Below the pieces are notes generated by a model that saw nothing but the letters and a program-made list of their open reading frames with translations, made no database searches and had not been told where the DNA came from. DNA of 33,221 bases from the NCBI GenBank assembly GCA_020351185.1, contig CP070729.1, forward strand, positions 885,228-918,448, written 5' to 3'. This stretch comes from Dehalococcoidia bacterium. Lineage in GTDB: Bacteria > Chloroflexota > Dehalococcoidia > Dehalococcoidales > G020351185. The position numbers and the translations under genes were made by a program. This document shows positions 18,224-23,131 of this stretch, one piece after another. Position 1 is the stretch's first letter, and every line of letters begins with the position of its first letter.

Positions 18224-18328
18224 TCGAGAGATGGAGTCAGTGCTATTTTTTATCACATATATTGAATCCAAATGGTTTTTAATTTAAACTGGACTTATGA
18301 TCAATAATAAAAGATATGGAGATTGATG

Positions 18329-18634
18329 ATGGGTGATGTATTGGATGAAGCCTATAGCATAATGCAATGCAAGGAATGCCCCTGGTATAAGACCTGTATA
18401 ATGCCGATGAGATTTACCGCTGAAGATATCCGTCGCCAGATGACATCTACTCCCGGAGCCGATATCTCACAGCAGGCGGATCTTGGTATTCAAAATCTCA
18501 TATCAAGTATGGCAACTGCTGCCCAGAATTCAATTCTTGAAGGTTGTCCTGTACTTATCGAGCGTTTGCGTTCGAGCCCAAGGCTTGCCCAACAAATCAA
18601 AGAAATTATGCAGAGTTGGAGCCAGGAAGAATAG
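18329..18634 (+). CDS. Unrecognised small Cys-rich protein (101 aa)
   Basis: I do not recognise this protein. It has three Cys in a row of CKECPWYKTC near residue 15 and a fourth in EGCPVL near residue 74. A Gly/Ala/Gln-rich middle and a helical C-terminus follow. The Cys set could hold a zinc or iron-sulfur site. No signal peptide or membrane segment is visible. GGAG at 18318-18321 best fits the ATG at 18329 (7-base spacing). An in-frame ATG at 18326 and TTG at 18323 are less well spaced. Its last 29 bases overlap the 3' end of elp3 on the opposite strand. Both genes look intact through the overlap. Confidence 0.7.
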   Translation: MGDVLDEAYSIMQCKECPWYKTCIMPMRFTAEDIRRQMTSTPGADISQQADLGIQNLISSMATAAQNSILEGCPVLIERLRSSPRLAQQIKEIMQSWSQEE

Positions 18635-20030
18635 AATCCGGCATTTCTCCAAATTGTCTTTTAACCATATAACTCATTTCCGATTGGTATCCCATATTCT
18701 CAAAGCGATAGTACTGCCGGGCGCCAACCCCGCTTAAGATAACTATAGCAGTTACACCAAACTCTTTGAACGCAATCCGTTCCGCTTGTGTAAGTAAATG
18801 CTTACCTATTCCTTTATGCTGTATCGCATTAATATGACTTTTCCCAAGATTAACTTCAGGTCCGTAAACATGCAATTCCCTTACGAGTGCTAGTTTACCG
18901 TTAGAACAATCTATTTCGGGTATGGGTTTATCTTGAATTCTTAATCGCAAAAGACCAAAAAGTGTCTCCATTTTATCTTCAAGAGAAAGTAAAATCTCCT
19001 GCCCACCGGATGCTTCATAATCCAATCTTTCCATATTCGGTTCCCCAACCTGCCAGCCATTTTTTATTCTGTGTCCGTATTCACGGCAACGAATGCACCT
19101 ACAGTTAATACCCTTTTCTTTCAACTTCAGTCTTACAACATCACGCAGTGAATCCTTCAAGCCGCCTACAATGAATTTAGCTGGAATATCACGCAGTACT
19201 CTCGATATCCTAACGTACTTAGGAACATTCGCTTTTATTTCAGTTACAAGATTAACCATCACGCTATCATCGTACGGTTGATACTTACCTTCTCGATGCC
19301 ATTTCTCAAGTTTAGTACCTTCTACCACCATAGTTGGGTATATTTTTAATCCATCGGGTCTGAAGCGAGTATCAGAGAATATCATTTTTGAAAGTTCTAA
19401 ATCATGCTGTGGGCTAGAACCAGGCAATCCCGGCATCCAGTGATAATGAACTTTAAATCCATATTCTTTCAGTAACCTGGTAGCAATGACAACATCTTCA
19501 ACTAAATGCCCACGACCTACAATTTTATAAATATCATCATCTAACGTTTGTACTCCAAGTTCAATTCGTGTAACACCAAATTCGATCATCCTCTTTATAT
19601 CTTCTTGACGACACCAGTCTGGTCTAGTCTCTATGCATAACCCAACACAGCGATTTCTGGCTTTCTCATTAATCTTTTGAGCTTCTTCCAAGTTTGTGGA
19701 ATCTATTCCGTTAAGTCCATCGAAACAATCTTTAATAAATTTATATTGATACTCAACAGCGCAAGCGAGAAATGTACCTCCCATTATAATAAGTTCAACC
19801 TTGTCTGTAGGATGCTCCATCTCAGCCAATATTCTTAGCCTCAATTTAATCTGTTTTTTAGCATCGTAGTTACAGCTTATGGCACGTAACACCGCCGGCG
19901 ATTCAGGTGTATAACTTCGTGGAATGGCTGCAAAAGTGGGGCAATAAATGCATTGTCCCGGACAACTGTTAGGCTGCGTCATTACCGCTACGGGGGTAAC
20001 ACCCGATATTGTCCTTGATAGTTTTTTCAT
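18606..20030 (-). CDS. elp3: Elp3-type tRNA uridine-34 carboxymethylation enzyme (radical SAM plus acetyltransferase)
   Basis: Elp3 uses S-adenosylmethionine, a 4Fe-4S cluster and acetyl-CoA to place a carboxymethyl group on C5 of wobble uridine 34. The 474-residue protein has the radical-SAM triad Cys23-x3-Cys27-x2-Cys30 (CPGQCIYCP), then YTPESPAVLRA, IIMGGTFLAC, CVGLCIETRPDWC, RIELGVQTLDDDIY, YHWMPGLPGSS and KIYPTMVVEGT. A Cys-x2-Cys zinc region (INCRCIRCREYG) follows, then a GNAT domain with GIGKHLLTQAERIA and YYRFENMGY. The Elp3 of Dehalococcoides mccartyi is a structurally characterised bacterial example. I chose ATG 20030 rather than the TTG at 20051, because the extra seven residues lie outside the domain. 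The gene is divergent from a Trm9-like methyltransferase. Confidence 0.94.
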   Translation of the reverse strand: MKKLSRTISGVTPVAVMTQPNSCPGQCIYCPTFAAIPRSYTPESPAVLRAISCNYDAKKQIKLRLRILAEMEHPTDKVELIIMGGTFLACAVEYQYKFIKDCFDGLNGIDSTNLEEAQKINEKARNRCVGLCIETRPDWCRQEDIKRMIEFGVTRIELGVQTLDDDIYKIVGRGHLVEDVVIATRLLKEYGFKVHYHWMPGLPGSSPQHDLELSKMIFSDTRFRPDGLKIYPTMVVEGTKLEKWHREGKYQPYDDSVMVNLVTEIKANVPKYVRISRVLRDIPAKFIVGGLKDSLRDVVRLKLKEKGINCRCIRCREYGHRIKNGWQVGEPNMERLDYEASGGQEILLSLEDKMETLFGLLRLRIQDKPIPEIDCSNGKLALVRELHVYGPEVNLGKSHINAIQHKGIGKHLLTQAERIAFKEFGVTAIVILSGVGARQYYRFENMGYQSEMSYMVKRQFGEMPDSILPGSNSA

Positions 20031-20125
20031 TGTATACTCACTTAATAGCAATTATCAGTCTATCAGTTTTAAATTAAAGCAACAACTAAACATAAAAGGG
20101 TGATAATTTCTTAAGGGTAGCATTA

Positions 20126-20782
20126 TTGACTAACGACTTGAGAGATGTTTTTAATAAGCTAGCTCCTAGCTGGTATAACTACCGTCATCACTCCATATTT
20201 AGTGAAGAACTCAAGCTTTTAGCTAAGCGTTGGCAGGAAGGAAAACTTCTCAATCTGGGATGCGCCCATGGACCCGATTTCGTACCTTTTAAAGATAATT
20301 TCCAACTATACGGAATCGATTTTTCAAACGAGATGCTCGCTCTCGCCCAAAAATATTCACAGAAATACAATTTCAATGTTGAATTATCACTTGGAAATGT
20401 CATGCAACTTCCATATTCGAACAACTCATTTAACTTTGCGATATCCATAGCTATCTATCATCATATAAAAGGCAAGTCTGAAAGATTAATAGCTTTAGGC
20501 GAACTCCTACGTGTATTAAGACCTGAAGGTGAAGCTTTCATTACCGTATGGAATCGATGGCAACCTAAGTTCTGGTTTAAACCAAAAACAATATACGTAC
20601 CTTGGCGCAGACAAAATGAGACGCTTTACCGTTACTACTATCTTTTTTCCTATGCGGAACTTGAAAAACTCGTCATCCAAGCAGGCTTTCAAATAATTCG
20701 AACTTACCCGTATGATACCGGCCATTTCCCTCAAAAATACTTTTCAAGAAATATATGTTTGTTGCTTAAAAAAAATAGATAA
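20126..20782 (+). CDS. Trm9/ALKBH8-like SAM-dependent tRNA methyltransferase
   Basis: This is a class I SAM-dependent methyltransferase of 218 residues. Motif I is LLNLGCAHGPDF (about residues 41-52), the acidic ribose-binding strand is YGIDFSNEML, and the core ISIAIYHHI block is followed by RLIALGELLRVLRPEG and ITVWNRWQ. A VPW at 158-160 and YRYYYLF at 168-174, before an AELEKLV helix, are landmarks that I recognise from eukaryotic Trm9 and the methyltransferase domain of ALKBH8, which methylate cm5U34 to mcm5U34 in tRNA. It uses a TTG start at 20126 behind a weak AAGGG. Divergence from elp3, which makes the substrate of Trm9, strongly supports this role. A general small-molecule methyltransferase remains possible. 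Confidence 0.7.
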   Translation: MTNDLRDVFNKLAPSWYNYRHHSIFSEELKLLAKRWQEGKLLNLGCAHGPDFVPFKDNFQLYGIDFSNEMLALAQKYSQKYNFNVELSLGNVMQLPYSNNSFNFAISIAIYHHIKGKSERLIALGELLRVLRPEGEAFITVWNRWQPKFWFKPKTIYVPWRRQNETLYRYYYLFSYAELEKLVIQAGFQIIRTYPYDTGHFPQKYFSRNICLLLKKNR

Positions 20783-22568: not shown

Positions 22569-22591
22569 AATTAATGACACAATTTGTTCTT

Positions 22592-23131
22592 TTACTTAGG
22601 AGCAAAACGCTCCCATTCACTGTAGATGCATCCACAATACTGTTGTCGATATAATCCCAAAGGTTTCGTTATAAAACGACTATGTGAATAATCTTTTCGC
22701 AAATCGGCATAAATAAATAATATTTTTGTATCTTCTTCAACATCTTTTCCGATTTCCAACAATAAATCGTGTTTTTGGTGAGGGCTTATCAGTAAGCTGG
22801 AAGTAAAATATTTAAAACCATACTCATAAGCGATTTCGCCTGTTTATTGCAATCGAATACGGAAGCAATAACGGCAGCGTGTGTTTTCGTGTCCGACCAC
22901 TCTACGAAAATACTCCATCATTTCATATTCTTTATATATTATAATTTCAAAAGCTAACTTTTTCGCCAACAACTGTATTGCTTCAAGACGATATTCATGC
23001 TCTTTATAAGGATGAATATTTGGATTATACCAAAAGGCTTGTGTTGCATATCCCCGACCCCTCCAATATTCAACGGTGTAGGCAGTGCAGTGAGCGCAAC
23101 AACAATGAACCAAGATAGAGTTAAATTTCAT
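22592..23131 (-). pseudogene. queH: Epoxyqueuosine reductase QueH, interrupted by one in-frame stop codon
   Basis: QueH reduces epoxyqueuosine to queuosine at position 34 of certain tRNAs. The frame opens with MKFNSILVHCCCAHC and continues through FWYNPNIHPYKEHEYRLEA and the CRYCFRIRLQ block. It then meets TAA at 22846-22844 after 95 residues. The same frame then runs open for 83 more codons to TAA at 22594-22592 and encodes the expected second half: YGFKYFTSSLLISPHQKHD, GLYRQQYCGCIYS and a short tail. All family Cys pairs are present on one side or the other, and no frameshift is needed. The ATG lies 13 bases after the ruvB stop. A recent nonsense mutation, a sequencing error or a truncated non-functional product are the options; stop-codon reassignment is unlikely because TAA ends other genes here. 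Confidence 0.88.

Follow-up and report, generated by a model that had tools for sequence, protein, structure and literature searches.

What does Elp3 make in bacteria, and does a second enzyme act on its product? In eukaryotes, Elp3 makes cm5U34 and Trm9 methylates cm5U34 to mcm5U34. For a decade, structural work on Elongator has used bacterial Elp3 as a model, and the in vivo product of this enzyme is unknown. The in vitro activity of DmcElp3 is very weak (PMC7663514), and a 2020 review places bacterial Elp3 in Dehalococcoides only, where direct evidence of any xcm5U34 derivative is lacking (PMC7663514). The window that we analyzed, a 33,221-nucleotide stretch of DNA from a Dehalococcoidia bacterium, raises the question in a concrete form: elp3 lies there back to back with the gene of a class I methyltransferase. 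Our analysis indicates that Elp3 and this Trm9-like enzyme likely constitute a bacterial wobble-uridine pathway to mcm5(s2)U34 that replaces MnmE/MnmG and in which Trm112 is not obligatory. The substrate, product, and target tRNAs are inferred, and no biochemical evidence supports them. The features of the locus are as follows.

18606..20051, minus strand: elp3, radical SAM / acetyltransferase tRNA U34 5-carboxymethyl enzyme, 481 aa (TIGR01211, 2.8e-167; PDB 5l7j, 1e-200)
20031..20125, no strand: intergenic region separating the two divergent start codons, presumed shared promoter region (from the sequence)
20126..20782, plus strand: Trm9-like class I SAM methyltransferase, proposed cm5U34 carboxyl methyltransferase, 218 aa (5cm2_Z profile match, five active-site residues, AlphaFold model)

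The alignment of the window Elp3 to D. mccartyi Elp3 (5l7j) begins at residue 8, which corresponds to the ATG at 20030. The true start of elp3 is therefore probably this ATG rather than the TTG at 20051. The methyltransferase gene starts with TTG and has AGGG upstream, and the two start codons are about 95 bases apart. A scan of the divergent region (20031..20125) for consensus promoters returned no more matches than chance. At the other end of elp3, a frame of 103 residues that contains a cysteine cluster (18323-18634, plus strand) overlaps the 3' end of the gene tail to tail by 29 bases; this frame is present at only 5 of 35 related loci.

The product of the minus-strand gene is a genuine Elp3, and its catalytic residues are intact. 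It matches the full-length Elp3 family model TIGR01211, which spans the radical SAM and KAT domains, at 557 bits (cut-off 350) and aligns end to end with the crystallized D. mccartyi Elp3, of which it is an orthologue. The [4Fe-4S] cysteines 30, 34, and 37 and the Zn-binding cysteine motif are retained, and the equivalents of the acetyl-CoA pocket residues K77, K193, E386, and Y441 (Dmc numbering) are all identical. That this enzyme forms cm5U34 is inferred.

The partner most resembles Trm9. Its best match among solved structures is Yarrowia Trm9 (5cm2), both as a single sequence (E 3e-13) and as a profile of 30 orthologues (5cm2_Z, E 2.6e-22), and the alignment runs past the core through the VPW and RYYxL blocks. 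In a Foldseek search, 5cm2 ranks second among approximately 1,950 class I methyltransferases, and among the 50 listed matches it has both the highest identity (25%) and the highest target-normalized TM-score (0.79). The AlphaFold model (pLDDT 89.8) contains a two-stranded hairpin at residues 155-172 (strands 155-162 and 165-172, pLDDT about 90), which corresponds to the lid described over the active site of Trm9 (PMC5372719).

Mutagenesis of yeast Trm9 identified R29, H115, R241, Y243, and N271 as active-site residues whose mutation disables the enzyme (PMC5372719). These correspond to R20, H112, R169, Y171, and N209 in the window protein, and across 109 Dehalococcoidia orthologues they are kept in 108, 109, 109, 106, and 109, respectively. 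As a background we used 32 methyltransferases, the best-scoring paralogues from related genomes; there the equivalents of R29, H115, R241, and N271 are kept in 11, 15, 6, and 4, and few keep Tyr at the Y243 position, where it is not among the common residues. Yeast Trm9 and one haloarchaeal Trm9-like protein outscore almost every one of these background enzymes. The yeast sequence was checked against 5cm2 (241.6 bits); the copy used is two residues short before R29, and yeast positions were mapped with an offset of two. The haloarchaeal reference came from a search of plasmids for archaeal Elp3/Trm9, which found one haloarchaeal Elp3 and no linked methyltransferase.

The first-pass annotation had described the two open reading frames at these positions as a divergent pair, elp3 on the minus strand and the methyltransferase on the plus strand, with starts less than 100 bases apart, and had recognized a Trm9/ALKBH8-like family by eye from the motifs SIAIYHHI, RVLRPEG, VWNRWQ, VPW, and YRYYYLF. 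The positions and arrangement held, all five motifs are present in the order given, and the best solved-structure match is Trm9 and not a small-molecule methyltransferase. It had also proposed a tree with Trm9, and this gave a divided answer. The partner found in other Chloroflexota, described below as the Anaerolineae type, groups with yeast and haloarchaeal Trm9 (94/88), and the Dehalococcoidia type is unresolved. A single clade of Trm9 and both bacterial groups is neither supported nor rejected (AU p 0.32), so it is possible that the shared Trm9-type active site is partly convergent.

How tightly is this enzyme tied to Elp3? Among 197 Dehalococcoidia genomes, 31 encode elp3, the identical 31 encode the methyltransferase, and 166 encode neither. 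The two genes are adjacent and divergent in 31 of 31, at methyltransferase identities of 41-57%. Three further weak methyltransferase matches (E about 1e-11), which look like ordinary paralogues, sit in genomes without elp3. In named public genomes, elp3 is divergent and adjacent at 75 of the 77 methyltransferase loci with upstream sequence. Of the 35 named loci flanked on either side by 4 kb or more of sequence, 34 carried elp3, and the next most frequent neighbors of the methyltransferase were rimI (17) and ruvB (10). The pair is therefore held together beyond general gene order, and the pairing is far beyond chance.

Two groups of loci stand apart in this collection. Two Dehalococcoidia methyltransferase loci (L125 and L127) have no elp3 within 5 kb upstream. 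Three contigs labeled Deltaproteobacteria (L096, L098, and L101) carry a Dehalococcoidia-type methyltransferase at 61-62% identity and represent either mislabeled bins or horizontal transfer.

The association extends beyond this class. In a sample of 400 Chloroflexota genomes, elp3 is present in 68, of which 41 lie outside Dehalococcoidia; we take these 41 to be of Anaerolineae type, a label that rests on general knowledge of the phylum. Most of their elp3 neighborhoods show a divergent methyltransferase that is very diverged from that of the window and shares with it the marks F-S-x-T-R, HHIP, a W-rich lid, and RYxHxF. Profile-profile comparison aligns the Dehalococcoidia and Anaerolineae types over the core and lid with 99.8% probability. 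The Anaerolineae-type partners have V or A at the Y243 position, and their C-terminal N was aligned by eye only. A profile of these partners detected 40 of 41 Elp3-positive genomes and 0 of 332 Elp3-negative genomes (Fisher p 4e-53, relatedness ignored). Of these 40 genomes, 35 have elp3 and the partner gene in a linked, divergent arrangement. In the remaining five (G282, G324, G352, G408, and G526), elp3 and the partner are both present at separate places. That the two genes occur together even when unlinked is the strongest sign that they share a pathway. The survey was confined to Chloroflexota, and the contig-level scan returned only the 80 closest relatives.

The sole Elp3-positive Chloroflexota genome without a recognizable Trm9-like partner is G366 (L188). 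Its Elp3 is 44% identical to that of the window.

If this pair modifies U34, what has become of the usual bacterial system? The MnmE/MnmG(/MnmC) pathway also modifies U34 at C5, in tRNAs of the same kind, but its enzymes are unrelated and its product is cmnm5U/mnm5U. We found no MnmG in any of 72 Elp3-positive genomes (31 Dehalococcoidia and 41 other Chloroflexota). Within Dehalococcoidia, MnmG is present in 50 of 197 genomes and in 0 of the 31 with Elp3 (p 7e-5, relatedness ignored), and MnmE exceeds its cut-off in 42 genomes, again in 0 of the 31; weaker MnmE matches in Elp3-positive Dehalococcoidia are restricted to the GTPase domain. The known pathway is absent from every Elp3-positive genome examined, and the two-gene cassette spans Chloroflexota and is mutually exclusive with MnmE/MnmG. 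The window's genome encodes MnmA, which adds the 2-thio group, as do 35 of 41 genomes from the same order. The final nucleoside in the Lys, Glu, and Gln tRNAs is therefore likely mcm5s2U34, although this remains an inference. About 116 of the 197 Dehalococcoidia genomes encode neither Elp3 nor MnmG, and how, or whether, C5 of U34 is modified there is unexplained.

A referee might ask whether a Trm9-type enzyme can work alone, as Trm112 is the activator and obligate partner of eukaryotic Trm9. We did not find Trm112p in the window's genome, which is 83% complete, and it was absent from 11 other Elp3-positive Dehalococcoidia genomes, five of which are single-contig assemblies at 99% completeness. 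Because Trm112 was not found in several complete Elp3-positive genomes, the bacterial methyltransferase cannot generally depend on it, a conclusion drawn from gene content and without binding data. Elp3-positive genomes outside Dehalococcoidia gave weak, patchy matches to Trm112p, and we rejected Trm112 as a third part of the cassette on the basis of this patchy distribution. Since partnership with Trm112 is a criterion that is not met here, we describe the methyltransferase as working like Trm9 and do not file it as a Trm9 orthologue.

We propose that Elp3, using radical SAM chemistry and acetyl-CoA, would convert U34 of certain tRNAs to cm5U34, and that the divergent methyltransferase would then move the methyl group of SAM to the side-chain carboxylate, giving mcm5U34. 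Together with thiolation by MnmA, this would yield mcm5s2U34 in the Lys, Glu, and Gln tRNAs. The cm5U carboxylate and the anticodon loop would be held by the Trm9-type set of R, H, R, Y, and N, with the lid hairpin covering the pocket. The methyltransferase would act without obligatory Trm112, and the pathway would substitute for MnmE/MnmG. The first-pass annotation had suggested that the pair may extend the Elp3 product to a methyl ester, mcm5U34, and had named conserved linkage with elp3 in relatives as a check. The linkage proved nearly absolute, with co-occurrence surviving where linkage is broken, and the ester is supported as far as computation goes, with substrate and product still inferred.

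Could the same observations arise otherwise? The alternative that we find hardest to set aside, while still considering it unlikely, is that the methyl ester is only an intermediate: a later step, such as reaction with ammonia to give ncm5U34, would leave a final nucleoside other than mcm5U. There is precedent: ncm5U34 is known in archaea, from Thermoplasma (PMC5372719), and in yeast cm5U feeds ncm5U as well as mcm5U (PMC6367351). However, no amidating gene was seen in linkage with the pair, and the flanking genes are not conserved.

The other alternatives change the substrate of the methyltransferase, and we regard both as very improbable. One holds that a small-molecule methyltransferase (UbiE/MenG, ArsM, or similar) merely sits beside elp3. 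The top matches in curated libraries are indeed UbiE/MenG models, but the window protein reaches no more than 47 bits against cut-offs above 150 (the highest match is UbiE, 47.3 bits against a cut-off of 216), and these models mainly cover the SAM-binding core. A UbiE-type identity was rejected on these scores and this poor coverage. Moreover, the methyltransferase keeps the Trm9 active-site set, and it accompanies elp3 in 31 of 31 genomes within Dehalococcoidia and in 40 of 41 outside the class, including those where the two genes are unlinked. The other holds that the enzyme resembles CmoM, converting cmo5U34 to mcmo5U34, or that it methylates another anticodon-loop nucleoside. CmoM is the known bacterial wobble carboxyl methyltransferase and performs the same chemistry on a similar side chain. 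Yet none of the members has a CmoM model among its listed family matches, and there is no reason for a cmo5U enzyme to track elp3 genome by genome. We retain the Elp3-Trm9-type pathway to mcm5(s2)U34 as the preferred reading.

How does this pathway compare with known ones? The bacterial methyltransferase shares with eukaryotic Trm9-Trm112 and the ALKBH8 methyltransferase domain (5cm2) the fold with its lid hairpin, the five active-site residues, the HH in the core motif, the VPW and RYYxL blocks, and a putative place in one pathway with Elp3. It differs in that it comes from bacteria, shares about 25% identity, is encoded next to elp3 in divergent orientation, is unresolved in the tree, and, to judge from gene content, does not require Trm112. 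Archaea likewise combine an Elp3 that acts as a single subunit with a homologue of Trm9. In Sulfolobus solfataricus the two genes were recognized as a cluster in 2008 (PMC2584109), and mcm5U34 is documented in Haloferax volcanii (per PMC7663514). However, archaeal Trm9 is patchy relative to Elp3, whereas the bacterial partner is present in all tested Elp3-positive genomes but one, and the bacterial pair replaces MnmE/MnmG. The open-access literature searched yielded no description of an Elp3-Trm9 pair in bacteria; most subscription papers, including the 2016 structure paper, were outside its scope. The relevant sections of later structural papers and the review mention no methyltransferase adjacent to D. 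mccartyi elp3. According to a 2017 review, genes resembling those of the Trm112-partner methyltransferases could not be detected in bacteria (PMC5372719), a claim that our finding contradicts.

A partner methyltransferase that tracks Elp3 by genome points to the probable Elp3 product. Dehalococcoidia with the pair probably use a "eukaryotic-type" tRNA modification instead of the usual bacterial one. With two genes they would run a pathway for which eukaryotes require many subunits, in clean replacement of the near-universal MnmE/MnmG system. A bolder reading, which we consider more likely than not, is that Chloroflexota possess a complete, Trm112-independent Elp3-Trm9-type mcm5(s2)U34 pathway that wholly replaces MnmE/MnmG as a divergent two-gene cassette in at least two classes. 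It would then be the first wobble-uridine ester pathway of eukaryote/archaea type in bacteria and might lie near the simplest ancestral form of the pathway. Dehalococcoides or cultivable Anaerolineae would allow a direct test of the mcm5U prediction.

The window contains a further tRNA modification gene, queH (epoxyqueuosine reductase; 22580-23131, minus strand), which has an in-frame stop after 'CFRIRLQ'. The remainder of the protein (TGEIAYEYGFKYFTSSLL...) goes on in the same frame past the stop, which may represent a nonsense change, a sequencing error, or readthrough.
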